Assembly (NCBI GenBank): GCA_028287135.1
Contig: JAQBQE010000019.1
Span: 62,001 to 126,000, forward strand
DNA: 64,000 bases
From: Myxococcales bacterium
Lineage (GTDB): Bacteria; Myxococcota_A; Polyangia; Haliangiales; Haliangiaceae
Direction: 5' to 3'
The position numbers and the translations under genes are program-made. The stretch's first letter is position 1. Each line of letters opens with the position of its first letter. The notes beneath the pieces were generated by a model. That model saw only the letters and a program-made list of their open reading frames with translations. It made no database searches and was not told the DNA's origin. Below are positions 685-63,169 of this stretch, piece after piece.

Positions 685-1095
685 GTGTCGGAACCCGGCG
701 GAACCCGCAAGACCCCATTCGAGCTGCTCGGCGGCGCGGACAAGATCCGCACGCTGGTCGAGAAGTTCTACGACGTGATGAGCGAGCGCGAGCCCGAGCT
801 CGCCCGCCTGCATCCTTGCGATCCCGACGGACGGGTCGCGCGCACGCCGCGTGATCGGTTCGCGCTGTTCCTGATCGGCTGGCTCGGCGGGCCGGAAGAC
901 TACGTCCAGCAGCACGGTCATCCTCGGCTGCGGATGCGCCACGGCCGGGTCGCGGTCAACATCGCGATGCGCGACGCGTGGATGCGGTGCATGCACGCGG
1001 CGATGGACGCCGAGAACATCAGCGACGACGTGCGCGTGTTCCTCGATGGTCGATTCGCCGAGGTCGCGGACTTTCTCCGCAACGCGCCGGACTGA
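685..1095 (+). CDS. glbO: group II truncated haemoglobin
   Basis: A 136-residue protein matching the trHbO (group II) family in length and in its 2-over-2 globin pattern: FELLGGADKIRTLVEKFYDVM at the N-terminus, the ELARLHP segment, the GGPEDYVQQHGHPRLRMRH stretch with the proximal-His region (HPRLRMRH), and the terminal WMRCMHAAMDA helix. Such globins bind oxygen or NO through haem in the cytoplasm and are linked to peroxide/NO detoxification or O2 handling. The start is GTG. Family assignment is confident. The physiological role in this organism is inference. Confidence 0.9.
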   Translation: MSEPGGTRKTPFELLGGADKIRTLVEKFYDVMSEREPELARLHPCDPDGRVARTPRDRFALFLIGWLGGPEDYVQQHGHPRLRMRHGRVAVNIAMRDAWMRCMHAAMDAENISDDVRVFLDGRFAEVADFLRNAPD

Positions 1096-55946: not shown

Positions 55947-56782
55947 CGACCGCCGCGATCGATCGTCGACAGCTCCTCGGCATCGAGCTCGAGACCGCCG
56001 AGGTCGAGATCCTGCTGCATGTGGACCGGATCGCTGGTTCCGGTGAGCGGCAGCATCCCGACCTGTTGCGCGAACCGGAACACGACCTGCGACGGCGTCT
56101 TGCCGTGACGCTCCGCGATCGCGATCACGCTCGGCTTCGCGAGAACGTGCTTGTTCGCGGTCAGCAGCGAGAAGCCCTGGTAGATGATGCCGTGCTCGTC
56201 GCACAGGGCGCGCACCGCGCGATCCCACTGGCGATCGGCGTAGCAGCGATTCTGGATGAACGCGATCGGCACGGTGCTCAGCGCGACCAGCTCGGTGACC
56301 TGCTGGGCGGTGACGTTGCTCGCGCCGAGCAGCTTGACCCGGCCGTCGTGGAGGATCCCTTCCATCGCCCGCCACGCCTCGTGGTCCTCGGCGCCAAGAC
56401 CATCGCGCTGCGAGGGTCCGTGGAGGATCAGGCTATCGAGAGTCGGAACGTCGAAGTGCTCGAGCGAGCTCGCAAACGACTGGCGGACCTGATCGCCGAT
56501 CGCCGCCGCCGGGTCGTACGGCAGCCGGTCGTCCTGACCGTCGCGGAACGTGAACTTGGTCTGCAGGAACAGGTCCTCGCGGCGGAGGAACCCCTCGCGC
56601 AGCTTGGCCTGGACCGCCCTCCCGACACTGGCCTCGTCGTAGTGCTTGCGCTGATTGGCGGTGTCGATCCCGCGAAACCCGGCGTCGAGGGCGTCATGGA
56701 CGAGACCCTCGGTCCGGGCCTCCTTCCAGGCCGTGCCGTACAGAAAGCTCGGGACCCGTACGCCCCTCACGTTCATGGTCAT
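55943..56782 (-). CDS. aldo/keto reductase
   Basis: A 279-residue AKR-superfamily barrel. The catalytic tetrad is visible: Asp in FRGIDTAN, Tyr in KHYDEASVG, Lys in LQTKFTF, and His in LILHGPS. The NADPH-binding end has GASNVTAQQV and FRFAQQVGMLPLTGTS. It reduces aldehydes or ketones. The specific substrate is unknown. ATG 56782 has TAGGATG upstream; ATG 56791 or 56776 are alternatives. Divergent from the CarD-like gene with 36 bp between starts. Confidence 0.88.
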   Translation of the reverse strand: MTMNVRGVRVPSFLYGTAWKEARTEGLVHDALDAGFRGIDTANQRKHYDEASVGRAVQAKLREGFLRREDLFLQTKFTFRDGQDDRLPYDPAAAIGDQVRQSFASSLEHFDVPTLDSLILHGPSQRDGLGAEDHEAWRAMEGILHDGRVKLLGASNVTAQQVTELVALSTVPIAFIQNRCYADRQWDRAVRALCDEHGIIYQGFSLLTANKHVLAKPSVIAIAERHGKTPSQVVFRFAQQVGMLPLTGTSDPVHMQQDLDLGGLELDAEELSTIDRGGR

Positions 56783-57780: not shown

Positions 57781-58086
57781 GTGAACGACATCGAATGTGG
57801 CTCGTGCCGCCGGATCAACGACCCCTGGCGGCGCCACTGCGGCGGATGCGGGAGTGGTCTGCCCGGCGGTTGCCCGGGCTGCGGCGTGGTCAATCGTGCC
57901 GACGACAAGTTCTGCGGCGGCTGCGCGCACGCCCTCCGGTTCTCGGTGTCCCCGTCGGAGGCGTCCCCGGCTACTCCGCCGCGGACGCCGCGCCGGCGGC
58001 CACCGTCGACCCAGCAGTCTACGATCCCGATCGATATCAGCGAGCTCCTCGCCGAGGGTCCGAAGCGCGGCGGTCAGGGGCACTGA
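57781..58086 (+). CDS. double zinc-ribbon protein
   Basis: A 101-residue protein starting at GTG 57781. Two zinc-ribbon halves: CGSCRRINDPWRRHCGGCG and CPGCGVVNRADDKFCGGC, each with CxxC...CxxC. A Pro/Ser/Thr-rich tail with PIDISELLAEGPKRGG follows. Probably a small regulator or RNA/protein adaptor. It overlaps the convergent broken propeller gene by 13 bp. Confidence 0.7.
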   Translation: MNDIECGSCRRINDPWRRHCGGCGSGLPGGCPGCGVVNRADDKFCGGCAHALRFSVSPSEASPATPPRTPRRRPPSTQQSTIPIDISELLAEGPKRGGQGH

Positions 58087-60434
58087 TCGTCGGCGGAGTC
58101 GACCTTGCCGTCGCAGTCGTTGTCGACCGCGTCGGTGCAGCTGTCCTCGTTCGGGCGACAGTGTAGCGGCCGCGTGCGCAGCAGGGTGCGAACCCGGAAG
58201 CGCTGCAGCAGCATGTCGATCCGGCCCGGCGAGACGAGCAGATCGACCATCGGCAAGTAGTCGAGCGTGTTGGGGACGAAGTCGATCGGCGGGCGCATCG
58301 CCGACCACTGCCGACCATCCCAGTGGAACAGCTCGCGCTCGCTCGCCGCGACCACATCGTCGATCGCGGACCCCGAAAGGAACTTCAGCTCCGCGGTGGC
58401 CTCGAGGAGATCATCGCGCCACGCCGTACCGTTCCAGCCATGGATGTGACCGTTGTTGGCCACGACGAACACGAGGTTCGGTGCGATCGCGAACACGTTG
58501 TTGAGCTTCGTGCTCGCCACGAGCGTCGTGACCGCGCTCCATGCCGTGCCGTCCCAGTGCCACAGTGCGTGGCCGGCGGTGTCGGGCGCGGTGACGACGT
58601 AGAGATCGTCGGGGCCGCTGCCGTGCGCGCCGTGGACGAGCGTGTTCGACAGCACGAAGCGCGTCCACGTCGTGCCGTTGTAGTGGAACGCTCCGCCGGT
58701 CCCGAACGCCCAGACGTCGGTCGGGCTGGTGCTCCAGATCTCCTGGATCGCGAGCCCAGGTGACAAGGCATGCGAGGTCCACGTCGTGCCACTGCGCTGG
58801 AGCACGCGACCGTCCTGGGCTGCCACCCAGACGTCGCTCGCCGAGGTGCCCCAGACGCCGTTCGCTGCGATGGTCAGGCCCGGATCGACCACCGTCGACA
58901 GCGTCCACGGCGCCGTGCCGTTGTAGTGGAAGATCTCGCCCTTGACCGTCGTCACCCACACGTTGTCCGCGCTGGTGCCCCACATCCCGCGATGGACCGA
59001 TGCGGCGAACGGATCGGGGAACGGCAGGTTCGGGAACCGTCCGAACGACTGGCCGCGATAGCGATACGCGAGGTTCAGCGTCGACACCGCGATGACCTCG
59101 TTCGCGTTGAACGCCATCAGCCCCGAGACCGCAGCGAGACCGCTCGGGCTCGCGCCGATGTTGTTGGTGCTGAGCCAGCCGACGCCGTCCCAGTGCCGCA
59201 TCGTGCCGTCGGCGCCCGCGACCCACGTATCGTTCGGCGCCGTCGACGCGATGTTGTTGTAGGTCTCCTGCGGCGTGCGCCACGTCGTCCACGTCGTGCC
59301 GTCGAAGTGACCGATCAGGCCGATTCCCGGCGACGCCGCATCGTTGCCGATCACCCAGACATCGTCCGCTGCGTTCGCATCGATGAACCGCACCTGTGCA
59401 TTGGTCAGCGTCGACGGCGCCCACGCGCTGCCGTTCCAGTGCATCAGTGGTCCGTTCTGGGTCGCGACTCAGATGTCGTTCGGCCCCGAGCCGCGGATCG
59501 CGATCGCCTCGCGGTTGAGCGCGCCGAGCTCGGACCAGCTGACGCCATTCCAGGTCTGGATGCCGCTGCCGCTGGTCGCGGCATAGACCGCGTCGGGACC
59601 TGCCGCCCAGATGTCGACGAAGTTTGCGGCCGGCGTGCCGGTGACCGTCGACCACTGCGTTCCGTTGAACCACAGCAGCACGGCCGGATTCGCCGAGCTC
59701 GTGCCCTCACCGACGACCCACACGTCATCGGGCGCGATGCCCCACACCGCGATCAGGTTGTTCGTGACGTGGGTCGGGACCGCGTTCCAGAACGCGCCTT
59801 CCCAGCGGGTCGCGCGACCGGAGAGACCGACGGCCCAGTGGTCGAGCGCCGACGCGCCGCCGACCGCGAGGGCCACGACACTGTTGAGCGCCTCGGGGTT
59901 CCACCCAAAGCGCGAGCAATCGCGGATCGTCAGGCCGCACGACTCGTCACAGCTGACGGATCCACCATCGAAACCGATCGAGAGGCACGTCTTGTTGGTC
60001 TGGCCGTCGCACAGCTCGGAACCGTTGACGATGTCATCGCCGCAGAACCCGCCGCCGCACGCCGACTCGTCGAACTTGCAGCTCGTATCGCAGGCGAGAC
60101 CGGCGTCCGCATAGAAGCCGCGATCACTGCACGTCTGACCGTCGAGGTTCACGCCGTCGCAGGCCTCGTTGTTGCGGACGAGTCCATCGCCGCAGAAGTA
60201 GAGCTCGCACGCACCGATCCGACACACGCCGAGCCGGCCATCGATCTCGCACTCCTCCTGCTCGTCCTTGCCTTCACAGGCGACGAGCTGTTCGGGGCGC
60301 AGACAGCGACCTTGATCGACGTCGCACTGCGATCCCGCGGGACAGGTCGTGCCGTCACCGCAGTCGGTCGCGTTCGAGGTGACGCAACTCGTCGCGACCG
60401 CGATCACCATCAGCAGCCAGCTCGCTCGGACCAT
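58074..60434 (-). pseudogene. Cys-rich beta-propeller lipoprotein gene with an in-frame TGA
   Basis: Signal MVRASWLLMVIAVATSC, then Myxococcus-type Cys-rich repeats (CGDGLVRNNEACDG, CGDDIVNGSELCDG), and many propeller-type blades with the pattern WNGTxWxxV and DDVWVVG/NDTWVAG. The protein of about 786 residues is cut at codon 322: GSGPNDI is followed by TGA (59469-59471) and then VATQNGPLMHWNG in the same frame. Other blades have Trp at this position, so TGG to TGA is likely. The downstream half could be a separate product only if restarted at ATG 59444. C-terminal MopE-like CTDAVDNDCDGKVD ends the protein. Confidence 0.75.
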
Positions 60435-60654: not shown

Positions 60655-61641
60655 ATGCGCAGCATGGTGCTGGCGGTGACCGCGGCGGGATGCAGCGCCG
60701 TCACGTCGATCCAGGTCGCCGCGCCTGCCGCGGTGACCGCGACCGAGGTCGCTCCGCCGTTCGAGCTCGCCTCGCACCAGGGTGGGCGCGTCCGGCTCGC
60801 CGATGCGCTCGCCACCGGTGACGTCGTGCTCGTGTTCTATCGCGGTCACTGGTGACTGTGGTGCAAGCACCAGCTCGGTGAGCTGGCCCGTAACGTCGAA
60901 GCGTTCCGCGCGCGCGGTGTGACGCTGCTCGCGATCAGCGTCGACGAGCCCGCTGCCTCGCGCTCGTTCGCCGGCAGCTACGGGATCACGTATCCGCTGC
61001 TCAGCGATCTCGAGGGCACCGTGTCTCGCGCGTACGTCGGCGTCGACGGCTCCGACACCAGCATCCCCGGGATCGTGGTGATCCGTCGCGACGGTCAGAT
61101 CGTGTTTCGCCAGATCGCGAGCGGCAAGGACGACCGCCTGACCGCTGCACAGCTGCTCGCCGAGATCGACCGCACGCTCGGGGTCACCGCCGGTGCACCC
61201 GGCGCATCCGCCGGCTATCCCGTGCTCGAGCGCCTGCAGCTCCGCGTCGAGCTCGGTGGCGGGCAGGTCGAGCTCGATGACTGGCGCGCCACGGTCGTCG
61301 CCGCAGCGTCCGCACAGATCCCGATCGGTCGCCACCTGCTGGTCGGCCCGATGATCCGCTACGAGCCGCTGCTCGCGCCGCTGGATCTGGATCTCGCCGT
61401 CACGCTGCGCGCACCGATCCTCGCCGACGCTGCGGCCGTCCAGCTCACGCTGCTCGGCGGCTACACGGCGATCGCCGACGACCTCGCACCTACGACGTGG
61501 AACGCCGGCGTCCGCGGTGGGGTCTGGGTCGCGCTCGATCCGAGCTGGGCGCTCAGCCTCGATGCCGGGATCATGACGCACGACGGAACGCCCGATCTCG
61601 CGGTCATGTTCGGCGTCTCGCGGCTGATCGAGATCCGCTGA
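60655..61641 (+). CDS. probable selenoprotein: peroxiredoxin-like domain fused to beta-barrel-like domain
   Basis: 328 residues if the in-frame TGA at 60853-60855 (codon 67) is read as selenocysteine. The N-terminus looks like a lipoprotein signal (VTAAGC). Residues 35-175 are AhpC/TSA-like: PFELASHQGGRVRLADAL, VVLVFYRGHW-U-LWCKHQLGEL, LLAISVDEPAA, IPGIVVIRRDGQIVF. The U sits where the family has the catalytic Cys of GHWCxxC, making a U-L-W-C motif. Residues 190-328 are alternating strands (LRVELGGGQVEL, HLLVGPMIRYEPLL, LTLLGGYTAI) suggesting a membrane barrel. A bSECIS-like hairpin follows the TGA at 60870-60886. No selA/selB/tRNA-Sec in this window. Confidence 0.8.
60870..60886 (+). promoter_or_regulatory. 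bSECIS-like hairpin
   Basis: CCAGCT at 60870-60875 pairs with AGCTGG at 60881-60886 around the loop CGGTG, which contains the GGU expected of bacterial SECIS elements. The apical loop starts 20 nt after the TGA (60855), inside the usual 16-37 nt window. The hairpin is inside the coding sequence. Confidence 0.7.
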
Positions 61642-61658: not shown

Positions 61659-62477
61659 GTGCTGTCTCTTCGCGTTGCGGTCCTGACGCTTGTCACGCTG
61701 GTGGGAACCGCGGTCGCCGATCCGAGCGAGCGCACCGACCGGAGCCGGCTCTATCAGATGATCCCGGTCGCCGCCGGCGGCACCGTCTATCTCGTGCTCG
61801 AGCTCGGGCTCAAGGACGCGATCACGCCTGATCATTGCCGGTGGTGCGAGTCCAACGCGTTCGACACGGCGGCTCGCAGCGCCCTGCTCTGGGACAACGT
61901 CCGGCTCGCGAATTCGCTGAGCAACTACACCGGCTACCTCGGCAACCCGCTGCTCGCGACCGGCCTCCTGATCGCCACGTCCGCCGGGGACGACGGCAGC
62001 GATACCACCCGTCGCATCTACGACGACCTCGCACCGGTGTTCCAGGCCGGCATCGTCACGGGCGTCCTCAATCAGACGATCAAGGTGATCGCGGGACGGC
62101 GCAGGCCGTTCGCCCAGTTCGGCGGCGTCGCGGTACGCGCCAAGAACGACGTCAACACCTCGTTCTTCTCGGGCCACACCGCACTGGCGTTCACGATGGC
62201 GACCTCCTCGGGCACCGTCGCCAGCCTGCGCGGCTATCGATCCGCGCCGGTGCTGTGGATCGGTGGCCTCACGCTGGCGACCGCCACCGGATATCTCCGG
62301 ATCGCGGGAGACGCGCACTATGCGACCGACGTGATCGCCGGTGCCGTGGTCGGCGCGGCCATCGGGATCCTGATCCCGCTCGTGTTCCACCACGACGTGC
62401 TCACCGACGAAGGGCCGGCACCTCGTCAGATCGCCGATCGCGAGCCGTTCATGTTCTCGTTCGGCACCGCGTTCTGA
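61659..62477 (+). CDS. PAP2-family phosphatase
   Basis: A 272-residue membrane protein. The three PAP2 motifs are visible: KVIAGRRRPF (K-x6-RP), FFSGHTALAF (SGH) and LRIAGDAHYATDVIAG (R-x5-H-x3-D). An N-terminal signal-like segment (VLSLRVAVLTLVTLVGTAVA) suggests export across the membrane. It probably dephosphorylates lipids such as undecaprenyl-pyrophosphate or phosphatidate. GTG 61659 start, 17 bp after the selenoprotein gene. Confidence 0.87.
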   Translation: MLSLRVAVLTLVTLVGTAVADPSERTDRSRLYQMIPVAAGGTVYLVLELGLKDAITPDHCRWCESNAFDTAARSALLWDNVRLANSLSNYTGYLGNPLLATGLLIATSAGDDGSDTTRRIYDDLAPVFQAGIVTGVLNQTIKVIAGRRRPFAQFGGVAVRAKNDVNTSFFSGHTALAFTMATSSGTVASLRGYRSAPVLWIGGLTLATATGYLRIAGDAHYATDVIAGAVVGAAIGILIPLVFHHDVLTDEGPAPRQIADREPFMFSFGTAF

Positions 62478-62527
62478 TCTGATCCGTCGATGTGTCCAGG
62501 ACGCTCCGTTCGTGGCAGGGTGCGCGC

Positions 62528-63169
62528 GTGACGGCGCCGATCCTGGGAACCACGCGCGTGAGCTGCCCGACCTGCGGGCGCGAGCAGCAGGCCTCGCTCG
62601 TCCAGAGCATCAACACGCACAAGAACCCGTCGGCCAAGGATCGGCTGCTCGCGGGCGAGCTCAACCTGCTGGTCTGTGACTGCGGCCGGCGCACCCAGCT
62701 CGCCGCGACCCTGCTGTTCTACGATCCCGACTCCGACTACTTCTGCCAGGTCTGCCCGGGCGGCCAGGCTGCGATGGATCAGGCGGCGCAGGCCTTCCTC
62801 AAGGCGGGCGCGGCCGGGACGCAGCGAATCGTCCCGTCGCTCAACGCCCTGGTCGAGAAGGTCAAGCTGCTCGACGAGGGGCTCGAGGACTGGGCGATCG
62901 AGATGGCCAAGGTGCTGCTGCTCGCGGCGACCGAGGAGCAGGATCTCGACCGCGTCCTGCTGTTCGACCGCGTCGACCGCACAACGCGCGTGATCCACTG
63001 GATGTTGTTCGATTCGCGAGGCAGCGAGGCGCAGCGCGTCGCGAGCCCGCTCGCCGCCTACGACAAGCTCGCGGCCCGAGCCCACGGGCGGCCGAGCCCG
63101 ACCGAGCTGCAGATCGACCGCGCGTGGGGCCTCCACGCCGTTCGCACGATGATCACCGGCGCGAACTGA
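62528..63169 (+). CDS. CpXC-domain protein
   Basis: A 213-residue protein. The N-terminal CPTCGREQ and SINTHKNPSAKDRLLAGELNLLVCDCGRR match the CpXC domain, a four-Cys zinc module (CPTC, CDCG). A helical C-terminal part (about 80-213) follows. CAGGG lies ahead of GTG 62528. Function unknown in the family. A tight downstream neighbour is the DsbA-type gene (53-bp gap). Confidence 0.8.
   Translation: MTAPILGTTRVSCPTCGREQQASLVQSINTHKNPSAKDRLLAGELNLLVCDCGRRTQLAATLLFYDPDSDYFCQVCPGGQAAMDQAAQAFLKAGAAGTQRIVPSLNALVEKVKLLDEGLEDWAIEMAKVLLLAATEEQDLDRVLLFDRVDRTTRVIHWMLFDSRGSEAQRVASPLAAYDKLAARAHGRPSPTELQIDRAWGLHAVRTMITGAN

Follow-up and report, generated by a model that had tools for sequence, protein, structure and literature searches.

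The question raised by this locus is whether a TGA codon within a peroxiredoxin (Prx)-like gene of a Myxococcales bacterium is read as selenocysteine (Sec). The gene is found at 60655-61641 on the plus strand of the 64,000-nucleotide stretch of DNA that we analysed, hereafter the window. When the TGA was read through, the frame encoded 328 residues and finished with an ordinary TGA stop (61639-61641); its single internal TGA was codon 67 (60853-60855) and it was otherwise open. The original prediction stated that this TGA falls where AhpC/TSA-like proteins have the catalytic Cys and that the frame continues for 262 codons. Both statements held: there were 262 codons, counting the internal TGA, from this position to the terminal TGA, and the context read FYRGHW-U-LWC, so the TGA takes the place of the first Cys of WCxxC proteins. 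The order along the protein was a lipoprotein-type signal, the domain bearing the TGA and, last, a C-terminal part some 140 residues long. The putative signal peptide (60655-60693) ended in a lipobox-like AAGC, with Cys13 likely to be lipidated. Residues 31-151 (60745-61107) formed a thioredoxin-fold AhpC/TSA domain, according to the PF00578 match (94.1 bits, cut-off 26) and to Foldseek, which related the N-terminal part to AhpE, Bcp and ResA. The gene is peroxiredoxin-like in a looser sense; PxxxTxxC, the classical Prx active-site motif, was absent with either C or U at its end, and the site FYRGHWU is of the UxxC type (U67-L-W-C70). In the alignment of ten long forms, one of which (L021) loses its C-terminal end to a contig end, the W, U, W and C of WUxWC were invariant, and Cys70 (60862-60864) would be the likely resolving partner of the Sec.

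The codons at this position elsewhere were collected by a search of 317 class genomes in which Cys stood in for Sec in the query protein; the best 110 matches, window included, were examined (30 loci at first and 80 fetched after). One of them (L090), lying at a contig end, covered only the C-terminal part and gave no alignment at codon 67. In the 109 alignable matches the codon was TGA in 82, TGC in 21 and TGT in 6, with neither Trp nor any other residue at the column, as the original prediction required. The 82 TGA stretches were all distinct over 48 nt; many of the genomes are close kin, and the counts are therefore not independent. A quick tree of the 109 domains, calculated with the Sec/Cys column masked, placed ten forms carrying the C-terminal barrel described below in one group with an SH-aLRT of 92, below the level of 95 starred by the tree program. 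On this tree the Sec/Cys states needed 10 changes, at least three of them forced by starred branches. Taken from the sequence comparison, the TGA at 60853-60855 is very probably a selenocysteine codon. Some class members had several TGA-bearing short-form Prx-like genes per genome, with four in G098 (L033, L063, L067 and L092) and likewise four in G099 (L056, L069, L077 and L100). A loose lipobox-like pattern was present somewhere 5' of the TGA in 69 of the 82 TGA homologues (a pattern match, represented in the window by the AAGC at Cys13). Our results suggest that the genomes of this class contain many envelope selenoproteins.

Immediately downstream of the TGA, the sequence CCAGCUC-GGU-GAGCUGG was found exactly at 60870-60886, giving a candidate bSECIS hairpin with a 7-bp stem, which begins 14 nt after the TGA, and a GGU loop at 60877-60879. 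A hairpin with a GGU-containing loop 20 nt downstream had been predicted; the GGU loop was confirmed, and it lay 21 nt past the TGA, so that the predicted distance was right as well. Allowing up to two mismatches, the 17-nt hairpin occurred twice in the window against 0.03 expected, the other occurrence being at 56287-56303 with two mismatches. The published rules for bSECIS elements ask for a loop of 3-9 nt, G in the first two loop positions, a stem of at least 4 bp, a spacing of 16-37 nt and an MFE of -7.5 or lower (PMC13188914). When nt 12-35 past the codon were folded locally, all of these rules held for the window and for 72/82 TGA homologues, as against 1/27 Cys homologues; the other 10 TGA homologues broke at least one of them. 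Stem pairing at seven positions was compared with random synonymous recoding of the homologues, for which the codon frequencies came from all TGA genes together, with the hairpin left in. The TGA homologues had 6.21 stem pairs per sequence against 5.01 (sd 0.11) after recoding, and none of 2000 shuffles was as high, in line with the bSECIS element originally proposed; in the 27 Cys homologues the values were 4.26 observed and 4.26 shuffled, with 1082 of 2000 shuffles as high. As the outermost stem pair, 37 of the 82 TGA homologues had G-C and 34 had C-G.

Folding was less telling. In the window, the 48 nt from the TGA onwards folded no better than their shuffles (z 0.18, 110 of 200 folding as well), and the energy was unremarkable in all four stretches that were folded (z 0.18 to 0.23). 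The hairpin appeared in the best fold of two of these, the window and L018; in L013, folded with six extra bases upstream, it was present only in the centroid, and in the selD gene of the window's genome it was in neither the best fold nor the centroid. The support for the hairpin therefore comes from the homologue comparison and not from folding energy. A DNA alignment of ten downstream stretches, in which one row was shifted by three bases, contributed to no count. No Rfam match was obtained over the window.

The machinery for Sec insertion, which the original prediction expected in the same genome, was recovered with the exception of SelB. The assembly (4.84 Mb, 71 contigs, 59.5% complete) contained a tRNA-Sec (73.6 bits, with ARAGORN in agreement), SelA (525 bits) and SelD (311 bits). 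SelD had its own in-frame TGA, within the active site GGGUAAK (L011, contig C66 of G000, 890-892, minus strand), and the GCTCGGTGAGC core recurs in the stretch after it, the best fold of which is a different one. SelB did not exceed the cut-off in this assembly at its 59.5% completeness (best score 82 bits, cut-off 242); among relatives, it was over the cut-off in 22 of 30 genomes of the family and in 8 of the 11 genomes bearing the barrel, the three where it was not found being the window's own genome (G000), G046 and G059, with completeness of 59.5, 86 and 86%. A strong tRNA-Sec, defined as E under 1e-11 by a threshold chosen post hoc, where the scores drop from 64 to 54 bits, was present in 52 of 59 genomes with TGA forms as compared with 7 of 17 in which only Cys forms were seen (Fisher p 0.0002); these 76 genomes were chosen and sorted by hand, G053 being counted as Cys-only although its long form, cut short, may bear the TGA. 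By Rfam's own cut-off, the tRNA-Sec was found in 8 of the 17 Cys-only genomes. Seven of the 59 TGA genomes had no strong tRNA-Sec, among them G068 at 94% completeness. No tRNA was located within the window. In G050, two equal-scoring tRNA-Sec matches were observed 7 kb apart (contig C163, 3030-3125 and 10027-10122), which may represent a duplication or an assembly artefact.

The second part of the protein is its C-terminal domain, for which fusion to a beta-barrel had been predicted from the sequence. AlphaFold2, run on the alignment of the ten long forms, gave a mean pLDDT of 87 and eight long C-terminal strands; with the C-terminal part alone, eight strands were again obtained at a pLDDT of 93.1. 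In a Foldseek search with the barrel model, six PDB matches had an E of 0.001 or lower, namely NspA, OmpA (three), OmpW and a designed transmembrane barrel, all at 12-15% identity. Residues 194-325 (61234-61629) are thus predicted to adopt an 8-stranded transmembrane barrel fold of the OmpA/NspA type. Of 309 class genomes, 11 gave a strong match to a profile of this domain (E 3.5e-26 or lower), and these belonged without exception to one family. In 10 of these 11, the window's genome included, the barrel was fused to the TGA-bearing domain, so that the predicted fusion recurs across genomes; in the remaining one (G053) the contig ends first. Among 377 genomes drawn from the phylum, a sample overlapping that of the class, there was no strong barrel match outside the family. 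Four weak matches outside it had an E of 1.9e-5 to 8.7e-4 (G273, G159, G189 and G241), and for two of them (G273 and G159), as read, no Prx domain was seen in the same frame.

Several other explanations of the internal TGA were weighed. It could be a true stop, or the mark of a degraded gene, leaving a 66-residue remnant and a separate ORF of 240 residues from the GTG at 60919. Both ORFs exist mechanically, and a neighbouring gene of the window carries an in-frame TGA where its homologue has Trp, so that this DNA is not free of nonsense changes or errors; but the same TGA is common to 81 other homologues, the frame goes on past it in 10/10 long forms (in L021 until the contig end), and the segment from the TGA to GTG 60919 ranks among the best conserved, with C70 and QLGELA invariant in all ten. 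Coding constraint 3' of the TGA was also visible between the window and L013, with 21, 19 and 46 differences at codon positions 1, 2 and 3 of 122 Prx codons and 42, 26 and 71 in the 135 codons of the barrel. A true stop is thus very unlikely. That a TGC or TGG was misread as TGA would be conceivable in an assembly of 71 contigs and 59.5% completeness, but other genomes carry the same TGA plus hairpin, which speaks against a read error and makes it exceedingly improbable. Decoding of the TGA as another residue, such as Trp in a reassigned code, or its simple read-through, deserves next to no credence, given that the gene's own terminal codon is TGA, that the column in the aligned homologues holds Cys codons and never Trp, and that SelA, SelD and tRNA-Sec are present in the genome. 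It was mainly the conserved TGA/Cys column that led us to reject a stop codon, a pseudogene, an assembly error and a reassigned code alike, and Sec insertion at codon 67 is strongly supported by the comparative data. Any annotation that treats the TGA as a stop will split the gene into the 66-residue piece and a second ORF, and the same applies to the other TGA homologues.

A different possibility accepts the selenoprotein and concerns only where it resides: the C-terminal domain may be a soluble periplasmic beta-barrel and the enzyme an ordinary periplasmic lipoprotein. Soluble 8-stranded meanders also exist, and the last residue of the barrel was Arg, whereas outer-membrane barrels usually end in an aromatic residue. 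In addition, no Pfam barrel family exceeded its cut-off in the six of ten stretches scanned, where the window gave no match at all and PF13505 matched weakly in two of the six. Nevertheless, the best structural matches were outer-membrane barrels and hydrophobic and polar residues largely alternate along the strands, for which reason we consider a soluble domain unlikely, while leaving it some weight, and prefer the transmembrane barrel.

With a transmembrane barrel, the parts can be brought together in one explanation in which we have high confidence, comprising Sec insertion through tRNA-Sec, SelB and the bSECIS, lipoprotein export, an outer-membrane barrel and a Sec67-Cys70 cycle. With the bSECIS hairpin just 3' of it as the signal, tRNA-Sec and SelB would decode the UGA at codon 67 as selenocysteine. 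The product would be exported as a lipoprotein and its 8-stranded C-terminal barrel is predicted to insert in the outer membrane, and lipoprotein export and barrel insertion together would hold the Sec-bearing thioredoxin-fold domain at the periplasmic face of that membrane. Because of the UxxC motif and of what is generally known of such enzymes, we propose that Sec67 attacks a peroxide or a disulfide, forming a selenenyl-sulfide with Cys70 that may be reset by a periplasmic thiol donor. In our judgement, the enzyme is slightly more likely to reduce peroxides formed at the outer membrane than to be a protein thiol:disulfide oxidoreductase. A more specific proposal, which we regard as possible but slightly on the doubtful side, is that in one family of myxobacterium-type bacteria a Sec peroxidase with a lipid anchor has become joined to an 8-stranded transmembrane barrel of its own. 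The highly reactive redox residue would then sit on the inner side of the outer membrane and perhaps serve to repair oxidised lipids of that membrane.

We know of no assigned substrate for most members of the Prx-like family, and the fusion offers a handle on the working place of one such selenoprotein, maybe the outer membrane, and hence on its substrate. Prx-like thiol:disulfide oxidoreductase selenoproteins were named in 2006 (PMC1794560) and again in 2022 (PMC9312934), and a 2026 table lists them with PF00578 alone and a UxxC or UxxU motif, with WP_010940744.1 as an example predicted with high confidence (PMC13188914, Table 1). They were reported from the former Deltaproteobacteria among others, and the myxobacterium Anaeromyxobacter was credited with 11 selenoproteins, three of them peroxiredoxins (PMC1794560). 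As far as these accounts describe it, the group of UxxC Prx-like selenoproteins is an established family, mostly predicted, and the Sec site by itself is not new. The Sec domain of the window shares PF00578 and UxxC with this group and fits it in these two features; it differs in the added outer-membrane-type barrel, the table giving only PF00578 for the Prx-like entries (PMC13188914). The same table lists two outer-membrane selenoproteins, the GSU2204 family/MtrB-PioB type barrel (NF041027) and the FCYXU-type TonB-dependent receptor (NF049945), which resemble the window's protein in being selenoproteins with an outer-membrane barrel, but are other families, with no Prx-like domain named for them there. 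The joining of a Prx-like Sec enzyme to a predicted outer-membrane barrel appears to be a new arrangement, because no report of such a fusion was found in the open-licence papers covered, mostly through listings.

Among curated models, 8 of the 10 homologues scanned had the SelL-related redox protein NF040769 as their top NCBIfam hit; the window's protein scored 50.6 bits against the cut-off of 120 for this model, and none of the 10 homologues reached it. The domain has the fold of the ResA/TlpA oxidoreductases and of the AhpE/Bcp peroxiredoxins, and ResA is alike in its CxxC-type position, but the window's protein has Sec where these have Cys, and all its NCBIfam scores were below the curated cut-offs. 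Similarly, the predicted fold of the barrel is like that of NspA, OmpA and OmpW, from which it differs in being fused to a redox domain.

Finally, the surroundings of the gene were compared in nine other loci, where the flanks extended to 2.5 kb at most, were shorter near contig ends and were missing downstream in L135. A PAP2-superfamily phosphatase gene lay 17 nt downstream of the selenoprotein gene (61659-62477, plus strand, with a GTG chosen as the start), and was not found in these nine loci. A CpXC-domain gene followed (62492-63169, plus strand); this gene and the one upstream of the selenoprotein gene were found only in L128. The neighbours are not kept across loci, and the context therefore gives no function. 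Further downstream there was a gene for a DsbA-like protein (PF01323; 63223-63936, plus strand). On the minus strand, a gene with propeller-like repeats (58074-60434) contained a second in-frame TGA (59469-59471). The closest relative, L128, has Trp at the aligned position, and its own copy of the gene shifts frame not far away. With Trp and not Cys in the homologue, the Sec/Cys rule rejects selenocysteine for this codon, and a nonsense change or an error is likelier.
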